A stretch of 64,000 nucleotides of DNA from Acidovorax sp. 1608163. GTDB taxonomy: Bacteria > Pseudomonadota > Gammaproteobacteria > Burkholderiales > Burkholderiaceae_C. The notes under the pieces are model-generated. The model ran no database searches, was not told the origin of the DNA, and worked only from the letters and a program-made list of their open reading frames with translations. The translations under genes and the position numbers were made by a program. The stretch is taken from NCBI RefSeq assembly GCF_003669015.1, contig NZ_CP033069.1, positions 2,676,501-2,740,500 on the forward strand, written 5' to 3'. How positions within the stretch are numbered: position 1 is the stretch's first letter; the number at the start of each line of letters is the position of its first letter. Shown in pieces: positions 29,220 to 35,217 of this stretch.

Positions 29220-29738
29220 TTGCCCTTTGAATTGAACAGGTGGTGCAGGCGCTGGCATGTGGGCCGCCGCTGCCGCACGGCACCACAGACTTGGATTTTT
29301 GTGCCTGTAACGACCCTGCTTTGCCTCGTCATTGCCATCAGCGATGGCGACACCCTCACCGCCCGCTGCGGCCAAGCCGGGGCCTACCGCCCCCTGAAAG
29401 TACGCATTGCTGCCATCGATGCGCCCGAGAGCAAGCAGGCCTTTGGCCTGCGCTCCAAGCAAAACCTGGCGCGCCTGTGCTTCAAGCAGCAGGCCACGCT
29501 GCAGCCCCTGCAAAAAGACGACTACGGCCGCACCGTGGCCAATGTGCGCTGCAGCGGCCAGGACGTTGCCGCGGCGCAGGTGCGCGCGGGCCTGGCCTGG
29601 GTGTACACGCCGTATGCCAAGCAACACCCGCAACTGCAGCCGCTGCAGCAGCGCGCCCAGGCCCAGCATGTGGGGCTGTGGTCGCAAAAGCGGCCCCAGG
29701 CGCCGTGGACGTACCGCCATCGGCAACACCCGCGTTAA
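29220..29738 (+). CDS. Thermonuclease (SNase-like) family protein
   Basis: Up to 172 residues. The staphylococcal-nuclease fold is recognisable: ISDGDTLTARC (metal-binding Asp), PLKVRIAAIDAPESKQAFG (catalytic Arg and Glu region) and KDDYGRTVANVRCSGQDVAA, then QVRAGLAWVYTPYAKQHPQL. It probably cleaves DNA or RNA, in the periplasm if exported. The start is uncertain. TTG 29220 would lie at the expected transcript start of the TATAGT box at 29209; GTG 29259 or GTG 29301 are alternatives. Only the longer versions leave room for a membrane-spanning leader. Confidence 0.8.
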   Translation: MPFELNRWCRRWHVGRRCRTAPQTWIFVPVTTLLCLVIAISDGDTLTARCGQAGAYRPLKVRIAAIDAPESKQAFGLRSKQNLARLCFKQQATLQPLQKDDYGRTVANVRCSGQDVAAAQVRAGLAWVYTPYAKQHPQLQPLQQRAQAQHVGLWSQKRPQAPWTYRHRQHPR

Positions 29739-29767: not shown

Positions 29768-31468
29768 TCAGCGCAGCAACGCGAGCACGCCCTGGGGCAA
29801 CTGGTTGGCCTGCGCCACCATGGCCGAGCCCGCCTGCTGCAGGATCTGCTGGCGCGCCAGGGCTGCGGCCTCGACTGCAAAGTCGGCATCCACAATGCGC
29901 GCGCGGCTGGCCGACAGGTTCTGGCTGGTGTTCTGCAGCGTGGACAGGGTGGTCTCCAGCCGCGAAGACTGGGCTCCGATCACTGCGCGCTGGCCGTTGA
30001 CGTAGTCCAGCGCCCGGTCCACTGCCACGATGGCCTGGGCTGGCGAGAGCATCACATCCAGCGTGCTGCGCAAGCCCAGCGCACTGAGGTTGACCGCGCC
30101 GACCCGGGTTTCCAAAGTCTGGTTGGCATTGGCCCCCACCTGGAACACCTTGCTGGTCGTAGAGCCGCCCGAGGTGGCAATCGCCTCAAACGACTCCGTG
30201 AACCCATCCAACACGTTGATGCCCGATTTGCTGCCGCTGTTGGGCACCGTGCTGGTGGCGGTCTTCACATCCCCGCCATCCACATCAAGCCCCCCGATGG
30301 CGCCGGTGTCTGCGTTGTTCAAGTCAAACGCGCCGATGAACGCAGCACCCGCCGCTGCAAACTGGGTTTTGAAATCGGCCGCGCTGGCAAACTGCCCGCT
30401 GGACGCGTTGGCCAGCGCCTGGTCCAGGGTGGAGCCGGGGTTGCTGTTCAGGTAGGTGAGCACGTCCTTGATGCCCTCGCCCCCCGCCGCCTTGATGCGG
30501 CTGTGCATGTAGCGCGCCGCCGAGTAGCTGGCCGAGTAAAAAGCGCTGGTGTTGGACGGCCCATTGATGGCCGCCGCCACAGCGGCGGCACTGGAGCTGG
30601 CCACGTCGGCTTTGACGCGCTCCTCCGCCCCTTGAATGAACTCGGCCGTGCCCTCCACAAACCACAGGTGGTTGCCCGTCAAGTCCTGCCAGTTGGTGGC
30701 GCGCGCCATCACGGCGTGCACCATTTCGTGGGCAATGATGCGGTCGTTGTAGTACGGGGCAGAGCCGCCGTTGGGCAGGTTGGGCGGCACAAAGTCGGCC
30801 ATGTCCACCTGCAAGACAAGATTGGTGCCCCGGCCTTGGGCATCAAAGCCCGTGGCCTGCACGTAGGCCGCCACACCCCCGGCGTTGTCAGTAAAGCCGG
30901 TGTAGCGAATGTCCAGCGCCGCCCCATCGGCCTGGATGCCATACAGGCGGGAGATCAACTGCTCGCTGCTCTCCAGCCAGCTGCCCACGCTGGTCATGCC
31001 ATCAAACACAGCCAGCTGGTTCTCGTCCCCCACCGCACTGGCCCGGCTGGAGTCAAACACCGCCATGCCGTTGAACTGGGTGGCCAGGGCAGACCGGTCA
31101 ATCTCTGCCGCCAGCTGCGCCACCTCGGCCTGTATGGCCTGCTTGTCTGAGGCGCTGTAGGTGCCGTTGGCCGCCTGCACGGCCAGCTCGCGGATGCGCT
31201 GCAGATTGCCGCTGACGCCAGACAGCGCACCCTCGGCCGTTTGCAAAAGGGACAGAGCATCGTTGGAATTGCGCGCAGCCTGGTTCAGCCCCCGGATCTG
31301 GCTGGTAAAGCGCTCGGATATGGCCAGCCCGGCGGCATCGTCCTTGGCGCTGTTGATGCGCAGGCCCGACGACAGGCGCTGTATGGACAAGGCCAGCTCG
31401 CCCTGCACACGGCCCAGACTGCGCTGCGCGCTCTGCGACATCACATTGGTATTGACGCTCAGCCCCAT
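29768..31468 (-). CDS. Flagellinolysin: flagellin with an inserted zinc-metalloprotease domain
   Basis: 566 residues. The N-terminal D0/D1 part is standard flagellin ([20 protein letters not shown], then [20 protein letters not shown]), as is the C-terminal D1/D0 part ([20 protein letters not shown] to the end). The variable region (about 150-440) does not look like ordinary D2/D3. It carries the gluzincin motif HEMVH at residues 247-251 in [15 protein letters not shown], and [11 protein letters not shown] about 20 residues later, with Glu272 or Glu276 as third zinc ligand. This is the arrangement of flagellinolysins, flagellins that build enzymatically active filaments and digest extracellular protein. 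It lies apart from any other flagellar gene in the window. ATG 31468 follows AGAGAACTGCC. A sigma-28 promoter is predicted upstream. Confidence 0.92.
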
Positions 31469-31509: not shown

Positions 31510-31678
31510 CTAGGAGTCTGCGCGGCAGAAGGCATCGAAGCGAAACGCGCGAAAACCGAGGATCGCGTGGTGCTACCGACAAGCCCAGGGTGGGCCCCTG
31601 GGCGCCGGAGGTAGTACCGCGTGAGACCGGTTTATCGTGCGTTGCAGCCGATGCTCCTTCTGCCGCGCAGACTCCTAG
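31510..31678. mobile_element. 169-bp palindromic MITE-like element in the flagellin leader
   Basis: Perfect 23-bp terminal inverted repeats at 31510-31532 and 31656-31678 begin and end with CTAG. The left arm starts CTAGGAGTCTGCGCGGCAGA. The interior is itself imperfectly self-complementary (for example CAGGGTGGGCCCCTG near the centre and TGGTGCTACC against GGTAGTACC), so the whole element can fold into one long hairpin. CTAG at both ends suits a 4-bp target duplication, as in some IS5-family elements. No transposase is encoded. Confidence 0.65.
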
Positions 31679-31781: not shown

Positions 31782-31950
31782 GGGAAATGTGAGGAACGCG
31801 CCGCACCAACTTTTCTAAGCAGGTACCCGACATGACGACGGCGCGGCGAAACTCAAGCGTCACGAGCGGCGGTAGGAGCTGCAGGACGTGATCGCACGCC
31901 GGTGGTTACAGGTTGCGAGTGGCTGAAACCGGCCAGGAGCAGACATTCAC

Positions 31951-32109
31951 ATGACCAAACGGCTTCGCGTTGTAATCACCCTTTGCATCGCCGCAGCGTT
32001 TGCTGCTGGCGGCATCTGGTTTGCGCGCGAAATGTCGATCGACGGGTGTTTGGACCGTGGAGGCGCGTGGGACTACAACCAAGCTCGATGCGACATGGCG
32101 ACCAAGTAG
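31951..32109 (+). CDS. Small membrane-anchored or exported protein with two cysteines
   Basis: 52 residues, starting MTKRLRVVITLCIAAAFAAG: a basic start and one hydrophobic helix or signal anchor. The outer part is IDGCLDRGGAWDYNQARC, a CxxxGGxWDYxxxxC pattern that I recall from small proteins in accessory or cassette regions. ATG 31951 follows CCAGGAGCAGAC, a good Shine-Dalgarno. First of a run of four small plus-strand genes. Function unknown. Confidence 0.65.
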   Translation: MTKRLRVVITLCIAAAFAAGGIWFAREMSIDGCLDRGGAWDYNQARCDMATK

Positions 32110-32178
32110 CGGCCAGCAGAATACGGCCACTATCGGTCATTCAACCACTGGGCCTAGCTCGCTCGCAACGCAAACAAC

Positions 32179-32499
32179 ATGCTTAGAAATCAGCTCATCG
32201 TTCAGCTTCCGATAACTGAGTCCACCAGCCTCTATGCATTGCTGCATGTCGAAGAGACGCTGATTCAGGCGTTCTCCCAGAATAGTTTTGCCGTGGTCGA
32301 CGGCCATGACATCGGGCAAAGCAAGTTCAACATCTTCATCTACCCTACGAGCACGTGGGCGCCGGTTCTTGAGCGCGTCTATGCATTCCTGAAGCTAAGG
32401 GGAGTGTTGAACGATACAGTGGTCGCAAAGCGCCTAAAGACCAGCGAGAAGTACGTTGTTGTTTGGCCTGAGCAGTTCAAAGGAGCCTTTGAGCTGTAA
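32179..32499 (+). CDS. Small protein of unknown function, cassette-like region
   Basis: 106 residues, beginning MLRNQLIVQLPITESTSLYA. A mixed alpha/beta pattern with HVEETLIQAFSQNSFAVVDG and FNIFIYPTSTWAPVLERVYA. It resembles single-domain immunity-type or cassette proteins in size and style, but I cannot name a family. Composition is lower in GC than the chromosomal genes. Spacing to the next gene is 82 bp. Confidence 0.6.
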   Translation: MLRNQLIVQLPITESTSLYALLHVEETLIQAFSQNSFAVVDGHDIGQSKFNIFIYPTSTWAPVLERVYAFLKLRGVLNDTVVAKRLKTSEKYVVVWPEQFKGAFEL

Positions 32500-32581
32500 C
32501 GGCGCAACCTGGCCACAACGAGTCGTTCGTTTGCTGGTAGGAGTTTCCGCAAACTGGTCATCCAAAAATTGAGATAGAAAT

Positions 32582-32926
32582 ATGCCGTCAGTCCTGATCC
32601 GTCTTGATCCCCGGCACATGGTGAACCCAGACACTGATCTTCGGTACATCGTGCCTGATCGCTTGGCTGAAGTTTCGAACGGCCTGCTGGCAGACAGCGG
32701 CTGCGACTATGAGGAAATCACAAATGCAATGCTCATCTACCTCTCCACTGCAAACTTGGACGCAGCGCTCCCCTTCGTGATCGAAGTCTTGGAGAACGAA
32801 ATGATCTATGACAACCGGCTTACCGATTCTGCCAAGGTGGGGGCGTCACCGCTCGATCAGTCGGAGCGACCAGCAGACTTCACCATCATCTACCCACGTG
32901 CCGAAGCTGGAGAGCGCATGGGGTAA
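32582..32926 (+). CDS. Small protein of unknown function, cassette-like region
   Basis: 114 residues, beginning MPSVLIRLDPRHMVNPDTDL. It contains DYEEITNAMLIYLSTANLDA and LPFVIEVLENEMIYDN, and ends in ADFTIIYPRAEAGERMG. No signal peptide or known motif. It suggests a compact alpha/beta protein of the type often annotated as an immunity protein; this is an impression, not an assignment. Good ATG start 19 bp after GAGATAG. Confidence 0.6.
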   Translation: MPSVLIRLDPRHMVNPDTDLRYIVPDRLAEVSNGLLADSGCDYEEITNAMLIYLSTANLDAALPFVIEVLENEMIYDNRLTDSAKVGASPLDQSERPADFTIIYPRAEAGERMG

Positions 32927-32958
32927 CCCGCAGTCGGCCATAAGCGGAGATTCGCGAT

Positions 32959-33225
32959 ATGTCGAATACCTCAATAGCTGAGCGAGTGCTTGAAATTGCC
33001 GAAAAGTATGCTGCGGGCATAGTTCCAGCGAGCGCAATTGCCGCAAGTCTCGAGCTACATCTGTCGGCGCTTGAAGGCATCTCAAAAGAAGTGCGGGACA
33101 GGCTTCATGCGCTGTCTGTTTTGGTTATCGCAGAAGATGTTTTGCCACACGAAGCAGAGGGACTCGGCTTGCTCCCTAGCCGTAATTCTCTATCTGAACT
33201 TCAGAGAATTCTTCGCCAGCTTTGA
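32959..33225 (+). CDS. Small helical protein of unknown function, cassette-like region
   Basis: 88 residues, beginning MSNTSIAERVLEIAEKYAAG. Nearly all helical (ASLELHLSALEGISKEVRDR, then LHALSVLVIAEDV). It starts 32 bp after the previous gene. The spacer holds CAGTCGGCCATAAGCG, a near-copy of a string at 6181-6199 after the NACHT gene. Family unknown. Confidence 0.58.
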   Translation: MSNTSIAERVLEIAEKYAAGIVPASAIAASLELHLSALEGISKEVRDRLHALSVLVIAEDVLPHEAEGLGLLPSRNSLSELQRILRQL

Positions 33226-33251
33226 GCGTGAAACAGATGGGCACTATGCCT

Positions 33252-33290
33252 GCTTTGGGCCCGAAGCTGCCGTTCGCTTTTGCCCAAAGC
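33252..33290. other. Inverted repeat after the small-gene run
   Basis: GCTTTGGGC (33252-33260) and GCCCAAAGC (33282-33290) form 9-bp arms around a 21-nt loop. There is no T-run. It lies between convergent small genes and may be a terminator or part of a cassette-end structure. Confidence 0.45.
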
Positions 33291-33306
33291 GGACATCGAA
33301 GGTGGG

Positions 33307-33600
33307 TCACGCCAGATGGAAAACGCGGGTTCCCAGGGGAACATCCTCTTTCGCTATCTGCGGCGGTAACACGAATGGGATTGTGAGGACCTTGGGGCGT
33401 GGTCTTGACCCATAGCTGAAGAGCGGAATCGAGTGAATCCTCGTGTCGACAATCTCGCCATTGGGCTTCAACAGTCGGATTGGGTCTCCCACCCGGACCT
33501 CAGGGACACCTGGCCCTGGCGTCACGCCCGGCGCAAGTACGCACCCAATGTTTGAGGTTTGGAATACCTGTTCAACGGTGAAGAGCAGAGAAGGTTCCAT
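33307..33600 (-). CDS. Small beta-barrel protein resembling EF-Tu domain 2
   Basis: 97 residues. LLFTVEQVFQTSNIGCVLAP, VRVGDPIRLLKPNGEIVDTR and KEDVPLGTRVFHLA follow the order found in the second domain of translation GTPases (barrel strands, then VxxGD). It has no GTPase domain. Free-standing proteins of this kind occur in bacteria without known function. Opposite in orientation to the four small genes before it. Confidence 0.6.
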   Translation of the reverse strand: MEPSLLFTVEQVFQTSNIGCVLAPGVTPGPGVPEVRVGDPIRLLKPNGEIVDTRIHSIPLFSYGSRPRPKVLTIPFVLPPQIAKEDVPLGTRVFHLA

Positions 33601-33900
33601 GAGTCGAGTGGCCGGTTCTGGCCGAATTCTGCCTCACAGGAAACAGAGACAAAGAGCTCTTCGCATTGACTTGCTGGCACTGGCAACAGGAACTGGCATC
33701 CAAGGCAAGGTGCCTCAATGGGTTAGCAAGGATTGAAACGCCTTTGCAGTAGGCCATTTCTTCATATTCCCCTTCAGCCCGGAAAATCCCGATGTATCGC
33801 GCCCACCGTGATGGTGGCTTTCTCAATTCCCATCACAAGGGCCCGCCCAGCAAGCTGCGCCACAAAGCGTTAGCATGCGAATCAATCTCATGCGCGGCTT
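33601..33900. other. 300-bp intergenic region
   Basis: No gene seen. It contains CCACCGTGATGGTGG, a short palindrome near 33808, and GGATTGAAAC at 33730, which resembles the end of some CRISPR repeats but occurs once only. Confidence 0.4.
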
Positions 33901-35217
33901 GTGCTGCCCCTTCACGTGACGTCTTCCACCTCCCTCCCGCCCGTGGCTGCCCCGGCCAGCATCTACCGCCACCCCGGTTTTCTCTCCTTCATCAGCGCCC
34001 GCCTCATGGCGGTGTTTGCCACCCAGGTGCAAGCCGTGGTGGTGGCCTGGCAGGTGTATGACCTGACGCGCGACCCGCTGGCACTGGCCTACGTGGGGCT
34101 GGCGCAGTTCCTGCCCATGCTGTGCCTGTTGCTGCCTGCGGGCGATTTGATCGACCGCTTCTCGCGCAAGAACATCCTGGCCATCAGCTGGGCGGTGGGG
34201 GCCTTGTGCAGCGCCGGGCTGTGGTGGCTGTCGGGCCACGGCGCCAGTGGGGTGGCGGGCGTGTACGCCGTGTTGGTGCTGTTTGGCTGCTCGCGGGCGT
34301 TTTCAGGGCCCGCGCTGCAAAGCCTGCTGCCCCAGGTGGTGCCGCGCGAGCAGCTGGCACAGGCCATTGCGGCCAACAGCATGCTCATGCGCTCTGCCAG
34401 CATTGGCGGCCCGCTGCTGGGGGGCGTGCTGTATGCCCTGGGCGGCGGTGAACTGACCTTTGCCCTGTGCTTTGCCTGTTTTGCCATCGGCACTGCGCTG
34501 CTGATGCGTGTGGCCACCGCCCACGCCAGCCCCGTGGGCCCCACGCTGGGCACCATGTGGCAGCGCTTTGGCGCGGGCATCCAGTTCATTCGCTCGCGCC
34601 CCATCATCCTGGGCACCATCTCGCTGGACCTGTTTGCCGTGCTGCTAGGCGGCGTGGTGGCCCTGCTGCCCATTTATGCCAGTGAGGTGCTGCACGTGGG
34701 CCCGGCGGGCCTGGGCGCGCTGCGCAGCGCCGTGGCGGTGGGCGAGGTGGGCGCGGGGCTGTACCTGAGCATGCGCCCCTTCAACCGCAGAGTGGGCCGC
34801 ACCATGTTTGTGGCCGTGGCGGTGTTCGGGCTGGCCAACTTGCTGTTTGCGGTGTCGACCTGGTTCTGGCTGTCGTTTGCCGCGCTGCTGGTGGCGGGGG
34901 CGGCCGACATGGTCAGCGTCTACATCCGGGGTGCGCTGGTGCAGTTCTCCACCCCCGACCACATGCGCGGCCGTGTGAATGCGGTCAACATGCTGTTCAT
35001 CGGCTCATCCAACGAGCTGGGCGAGTTCCGCGCAGGCACCAGCGCCGCGTGGCTGGGCGTGGTGCCCGCTGCTGTGCTGGGTGGCTTGTGCACCCTGGGC
35101 GTGGTGGGCGGGTGGACGCTGGGCTTCAAGCAACTGCGCACAGTGGACCGCTTTGAAGAGGCGGCCGAGGCCACTGGCGCCAGTAGCACGGCTGGCGCGG
35201 CTGGCAACGCTCCGTAG
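33901..35217 (+). CDS. MFS transporter, EntS-like exporter family
   Basis: 438 residues with about 12 hydrophobic segments. The cytoplasmic loop-2 signature is present as PAGDLIDRFSRKNILAISWA, and DHMRGRVNAVNMLFIGSSNE resembles the MFS_3/EntS group, whose members export siderophores or drugs. No siderophore genes are adjacent, so the substrate is unknown. The start is a GTG at 33901, or a GTG at 33916 a few codons later. The region upstream is the small-gene cluster. Confidence 0.87.
   Translation: MLPLHVTSSTSLPPVAAPASIYRHPGFLSFISARLMAVFATQVQAVVVAWQVYDLTRDPLALAYVGLAQFLPMLCLLLPAGDLIDRFSRKNILAISWAVGALCSAGLWWLSGHGASGVAGVYAVLVLFGCSRAFSGPALQSLLPQVVPREQLAQAIAANSMLMRSASIGGPLLGGVLYALGGGELTFALCFACFAIGTALLMRVATAHASPVGPTLGTMWQRFGAGIQFIRSRPIILGTISLDLFAVLLGGVVALLPIYASEVLHVGPAGLGALRSAVAVGEVGAGLYLSMRPFNRRVGRTMFVAVAVFGLANLLFAVSTWFWLSFAALLVAGAADMVSVYIRGALVQFSTPDHMRGRVNAVNMLFIGSSNELGEFRAGTSAAWLGVVPAAVLGGLCTLGVVGGWTLGFKQLRTVDRFEEAAEATGASSTAGAAGNAP

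Follow-up and report, generated by a model that had tools for sequence, protein, structure and literature searches.

Does a flagellin gene that stands apart from the other flagellar genes and carries a metallopeptidase in its middle still serve the flagellum, and is it a regular possession of its genus? These questions are raised by a reading frame of Acidovorax sp. 1608163, which we analyzed within a window of 64,000 nucleotides (contig NZ_CP033069.1, positions 2,676,501 to 2,740,500). We consider it very probable that the gene encodes a flagellinolysin that is transcribed by the flagellar sigma factor FliA (sigma-28), exported by the flagellum and built into the filament as a minority subunit with an outward-facing zinc protease, and that it is an optional gene at one chromosomal site. 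The original prediction, made from the sequence alone, had likewise proposed a flagellinolysin with standard flagellin ends; its coordinates proved exact, and the strand, which it had not given, is minus, with the ATG at 31468 and the stop codon ending at 29768.

The identity of the product was examined with family models. With the NCBIfam flagellinolysin model NF033876 (curated cut-off 205 bits), the protein scored 426.4 bits over residues 112–496, corresponding to model positions 1–383 of 384, and in a search of the whole genome it was the single gene to pass the cut-off, the conventional flagellins giving three partial matches below it. Flagellin_N and Flagellin_C both exceeded their Pfam cut-offs (26.6 and 23 bits, respectively) and flank the peptidase part, so that both the proposed name and the flagellin ends held. 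An HExxH motif by itself would mean little; the match goes beyond chance because the whole NF033876 model is aligned and no metal-ligand residue varies among the 86 aligned sequences. Judged by its sequence, the product is a flagellinolysin, and the gene is a good but unremarkable example of its family, proteolytic flagellins having already been published (PMC5595980; PMC7643111).

For the active site, relatives of residues 150–440 were collected in a protein search that scored the 8000 candidates with most words in common; 884 were found and 120 listed, the best five among those listed being 90–98% identical. The window protein was aligned with 85 of the 120, the resulting 86 rows leaving out truncated proteins, many near-duplicates and one protein with diverged ends (P0035). 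H247, E248, H251, E272, G273, A275 and E276 were without any variation across these rows, and an earlier 22-row alignment that included P0035 gave the identical set of residues. The two motifs that hold them, HEMVH and WFVEGTAEF, lie exactly at the originally predicted residues; from knowledge of the family, we take HEMVH to supply two zinc ligands (H247, H251) and the general base, and WFVEGTAEF to supply the third ligand (E272) and the basement residue (A275). A further conserved motif stands at residues 385–397 (D387, G389, G392 and G393 in 86 of 86 rows, N385 and D397 in 85, D395 in 84), for which a calcium role would be a guess. In a scan of a genome collection, where the best 80 of 582 loci were kept, a pattern for the motifs was present in an open frame at 11 loci, among them Nitrosomonas, Massilia, Colwellia and the Firmicute Pelosinus, and HExxH and the distal glutamate were likewise invariant across those 11. 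Many of the other 69 match best at the flagellin ends only; some, such as L219 and L222 (49–53% along almost the entire query), could be flagellinolysins overlooked by the pattern.

The Peptidase_M9 profile (PF01752) aligned over residues 246–326 (E=1.3e-5, 25.1 bits) and matched 83 of the 86 aligned homologues at E<=0.01. The original prediction had named the lack of any peptidase profile at HEMVH as an outcome that would speak against it; such a profile does align there, though below its cut-off, and membership of the M9 family was dropped because the window protein falls just under the curated score. In a full-length structure model (mean predicted local distance difference test score, pLDDT, 85.5) the first 40 and last 30 residues were poorly predicted, ten-residue blocks from 151 to 430 had mean pLDDT values of 83–98, and block 431–440 had 73. 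HEMVH is predicted to lie in helix 241–257 and E272 in helix 268–279, two successive and confident helices, and the other contrary outcome that had been named, a fold without a zinc site, was not seen in this whole-protein model. When the whole model was compared with solved structures using Foldseek, the 50 listed of 322 ranked chains were all flagellin-containing structures.

Table 1. Features of the flagellinolysin locus, in coordinates of the window
Feature	Position	Strand	Basis
Flagellinolysin gene (flagellin D0/D1 ends, metallopeptidase hypervariable region)	29768..31468	-	566 aa frame
Flagellin_N region, residues 5-141	31046..31456	-	PF00669, 141.5 bits
Flagellin_C region, residues 482-565	29774..30025	-	PF00700, 74.6 bits
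Hypervariable region with peptidase, residues 150-440	30149..31021	-	NF033876 match and pLDDT
HEMVH, residues 247-251	30716..30730	-	H247, E248, H251 invariant in 86/86
WFVEGTAEF, residues 269-277	30638..30664	-	E272, G273, A275, E276 invariant in 86/86
Conserved acidic/glycine motif, residues 385-397	30278..30316	-	86-row alignment
Sigma-28 (FliA)-like promoter site AAGTTTTCGCCCCGGCGTCCGATAA	31755..31779	-	pattern common to 16/16 genus leaders
Miniature inverted-repeat transposable element (MITE) with perfect inverted ends of 23 nt, located between the start codon and the promoter-like site	31510..31678		repeat and dispersed copies
Staphylococcal nuclease (SNase)-type gene, conserved neighbour, downstream side	29220..29738	+	PF00565
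Major facilitator superfamily (MFS) transporter gene, conserved neighbour, upstream side	33901..35217	+	PF05977/PF07690

We next place the gene among the flagellins of its own genome, a single contig of 5,045,878 bases. Flagellin_N has five matches there: a flagellin pair arranged head to head at 632 kb, the flagellinolysin at 2.707 Mb, another flagellin at 3.415 Mb and a fifth match at 601 kb, which we take from its low score to be FlgL. Excluding this FlgL-like match, three conventional flagellins accompany the flagellinolysin, so that what had been proposed as a second flagellin is one of four. The flagellin pair is surrounded by MotA, MotB and a FliD-like protein at about 621–636 kb (10 of the 48 open reading frames of at least 130 aa were scanned there; MotA and MotB were over their cut-offs, FliD at 218 bits was under its cut-off of 387), and the earlier statement that the gene lies outside any flagellar cluster, made for the window, is true genome-wide. 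Compared with the genome's own flagellins, the flagellinolysin ends are 68% (D0N), 61–66% (D1N), 48–56% (D1C) and 76–80% (D0C) identical, versus 15–20% for the middle; this comparison has five rows for three genes, of which two appear twice, and the C-terminal figures omit two rows that are cut off by a locus end. Near the flagellin pair there are also a tetratricopeptide repeat (TPR) protein (L074:3034-5379) and, at L074:9604-10410, a remote similarity to a rhamnosyl O-methyltransferase model (81.9 bits against a cut-off of 400), for which a part in flagellin glycosylation would be a guess.

How regularly is the gene kept? A flagellinolysin over the cut-off was found in 16 of the 47 genomes of the genus, and all 16 copies, the window's and 15 others, sit between the same SNase and MFS genes. 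At the thresholds used, the MFS gene was found in 34 and the SNase gene in 46 of the 47. Among 18 genomes with the MFS gene and without flagellinolysin, the two neighbours are adjacent in 17, with 126–341 bp between the matches, and lie on separate contigs in the remaining one (G030); the site survey covers these 18, the other 13 non-carriers having no MFS match at the threshold used. No gene remnant was detected at the 17 empty sites, where the BLAST matches were all upstream of the start codon and none was coding. One chromosomal site is occupied or empty in the genomes examined, which shows the gene to be optional in the genus. On an rpoB tree comprising 39 of the 47 genomes and 13 of the 16 carriers (eight genomes lacking a usable rpoB match were omitted, carriers G022, G034 and G042 among them), a single clade of carriers was ruled out (approximately unbiased test, p 3.15e-06), and presence and absence need at least 7 changes, counted on this unrooted tree of one gene. 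Among the same 13 of 16 carriers, rpoB and flagellinolysin distances correlate (Mantel r 0.73, a value that none of 5000 permutations reached). These patterns would fit vertical descent with repeated loss as well as exchange at one site. An origin from plasmids was rejected, as no single place in any of 195 matching plasmid records covers 80% of the query; the 20 matches listed were annotated as flagellin, and records close to the own genome may be missing from that set. Related genomes with the site occupied or empty form natural matched pairs in which the benefit of a proteolytic filament could be tested with strains from the environment.

The leaders of these copies have a promoter-like site in common. 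The pattern A[AG]GTT[TC][TC]-N10-[GT][CT]CGATA[AT] stands 114–325 bases upstream of the start codon in all 16 copies of the genus, the window included, a count that holds partly by construction, the pattern having been derived from these same sequences, whereas its empty background does not: elsewhere in these loci, over 577,752 strand-bases, the pattern is absent, as it is from 18 loci without the gene. The E. coli sigma-28 consensus is TAAAGTTT-N11-GCCGATAA, and of the three conventional flagellins of this genome two are preceded by sites with two mismatches to it; the likeness to sigma-28 sites is drawn from this consensus and from these two sites. The pattern itself gave no match in a further three 20-kb stretches of this genome, those containing the FlgL-like gene and the conventional flagellins, and is therefore narrower than the consensus. 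Such a conserved sigma-28-like site suggests flagellar co-regulation, with the direct prediction that an off-cluster flagellin would still be made on the flagellar schedule.

In the account that we favour, FliA would most likely transcribe the gene together with the late flagellar genes, as the conserved promoter-like site indicates, despite the separation of 2 Mb from the motA/motB/flagellin-pair region. The protein would then probably be exported via the flagellar channel, and its D0/D1 ends would allow it, as a minority subunit, to polymerise together with the three conventional flagellins, given the conservation of these domains and the published filaments of Clostridium haemolyticum. The peptidase domain would face outward, hold zinc on H247, H251 and E272, use E248 as general base and cut proteins near the filament, as expected from the invariant residues and the published activity of the Hylemonella gracilis and C. 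haemolyticum proteins. Several observations weigh against this account besides the partly built-in promoter count. The window's own site has three mismatches to the E. coli consensus, the third own conventional flagellin is preceded by a three-mismatch site only, and a copy from another genus (L072) is without the pattern. The window protein misses the Peptidase_M9 gathering score of 26 bits by 0.9 bit, and a sequence search of solved structures with the middle region returned nothing meaningful, the matches being unrelated and weak (one at E=0.044, four at E 0.098–0.57). Only 3 of 250 sampled genomes of the family carry a flagellinolysin, two of them in this genus, the window's included. Lastly, the MITE interrupts the leader and could reduce expression in this strain.

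This element raises the possibility that the gene is effectively silent here, its expression lowered or stopped by the palindrome, and that it is being lost as at the empty sites. The element measures 163 bp from end to end of its 20-nt ends and is single-copy in its own genome; with up to two mismatches, the 20-nt end occurs in 26 of the 47 genus genomes, the own included, as compared with 4 matches in three genomes for a backward-read control pattern. Of nine stretches compared, seven possess both ends; these seven come from four other genomes and align over the whole MITE length with unrelated flanks. CTAG is preserved at all 8 left ends and at 6 of the 8 right ends. By these signs the element is a MITE. 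An invertible switch, which the 23-nt inverted repeat had brought to mind, was set aside, the element being dispersed in other genomes with unrelated flanks. The leader RNA is predicted to form a very stable hairpin, far more stable than shuffles (z -7.9), versus -0.2 in the closest relative (L057), the leader of which is without the MITE; nor was a copy found in the leader of G045 (L062). Together with the coming or going of the gene, which takes seven or more changes on the rpoB tree, this would suit a silenced gene; however, the frame is intact, all catalytic residues are present, and the long hairpin of the predicted fold does not include the final bases ahead of the start codon, so we regard silencing as unlikely. 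The same leader carries a different palindrome in G017 (L059:7900-8099; 31-nt arms, 90% complementary) and a short hairpin in G045 (L062:6578-6612; 17-nt arms, 94%). A bolder and still less likely idea is that the locus is a plug-in module of the flagellum, one sigma-factor-wired site at which lineages repeatedly gain and lose a protease subunit and independent leader palindromes (the 163-bp MITE here, the 31-nt-armed element in G017 and the 17-nt-armed hairpin in G045) tune the amount of protease that enters the filament of each species.

Two further explanations concern the protein. It might be exported by the flagellum and mainly released, acting as a secreted protease and not as part of the filament, an idea raised in the discussion of PMC7643111 and compatible with two homologues (P0035 and P0117) whose N-terminal core is strongly diverged while the HExxH/EGxAEF motif is kept. 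D0 and D1 of the window protein are, however, well conserved, as expected for a polymerising subunit, and the flagellinolysin of C. haemolyticum is a filament component (PMC5595980), which leaves predominant release improbable here. P0035 and P0117 themselves are possibly no longer filament subunits. That the domain is catalytically inert and kept for another purpose, such as adhesion, is hardly credible: the sub-threshold M9 match would agree with it, but the zinc and catalytic residues are invariant throughout the 86 rows and activity has been shown for the member characterised from H. gracilis (PMC7643111).

Next to the leader, at about 31800–33845 of the window, lies a stretch of roughly 2 kb with lower G+C (52–58% in most blocks) that is not at this place in the closest relative. 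Parts of it match at different places in 6 of the 47 genomes, this one included, and adjoining parts share 16–24 bases at their edges, as in a cassette array. Five of its small open reading frames, those at 31951–32109, 32179–32499, 32582–32926 and 32959–33225 among them, had no match in Pfam, and three had none in PADLOC.

Among known systems, a literature search on flagellin, metallopeptidase and Acidovorax gave nothing on this subject, judged by titles and the beginnings of abstracts; 'Acidovorax' occurs in the main text of neither PMC5595980 nor PMC7643111, 'promoter' does not occur in PMC7643111, and the available parts of both papers describe neither an occupied or empty site nor a sigma-28-like site. 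The window protein resembles HgrFlaMP of H. gracilis, which probably belongs to the same bacterial family and has the same architecture, with its HExxH at residues 249–253 rather than 247–251; its gene also lies outside any flagellar cluster, conservation in Comamonadaceae has been suggested, and the biological role of the family was called unclear (PMC7643111). The neighbours differ, being a NUDIX hydrolase, a MarR-type regulator and others in H. gracilis and the SNase and MFS genes here, and of these two proteins activity has been shown for HgrFlaMP only (PMC7643111). FliA(H) of C. haemolyticum shares the HExxH, the third glutamate and the basement alanine three residues on (Glu262/Ala265 there, E272/A275 here), yet it comes from a Gram-positive bacterium, its gene lies within a flagellar cluster and it has been shown in filaments (PMC5595980); the distance from the HExxH glutamate to the third glutamate is 28 residues there and 24 here. 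The bacterial collagenase peptidase domain (M9) offers a local likeness around HEMVH, below the cut-off for the window protein. Closer at hand, NCBI names as flagellinolysin a protein of Acidovorax sp. DW039 (P0006), one of the best five among the relatives listed, which also has 566 aa and is 90% identical over residues 150–440. To the published family, the present locus adds the three accompanying conventional flagellins, the site between SNase and MFS genes that is occupied or empty, the sigma-28-like site and the MITE in the leader.
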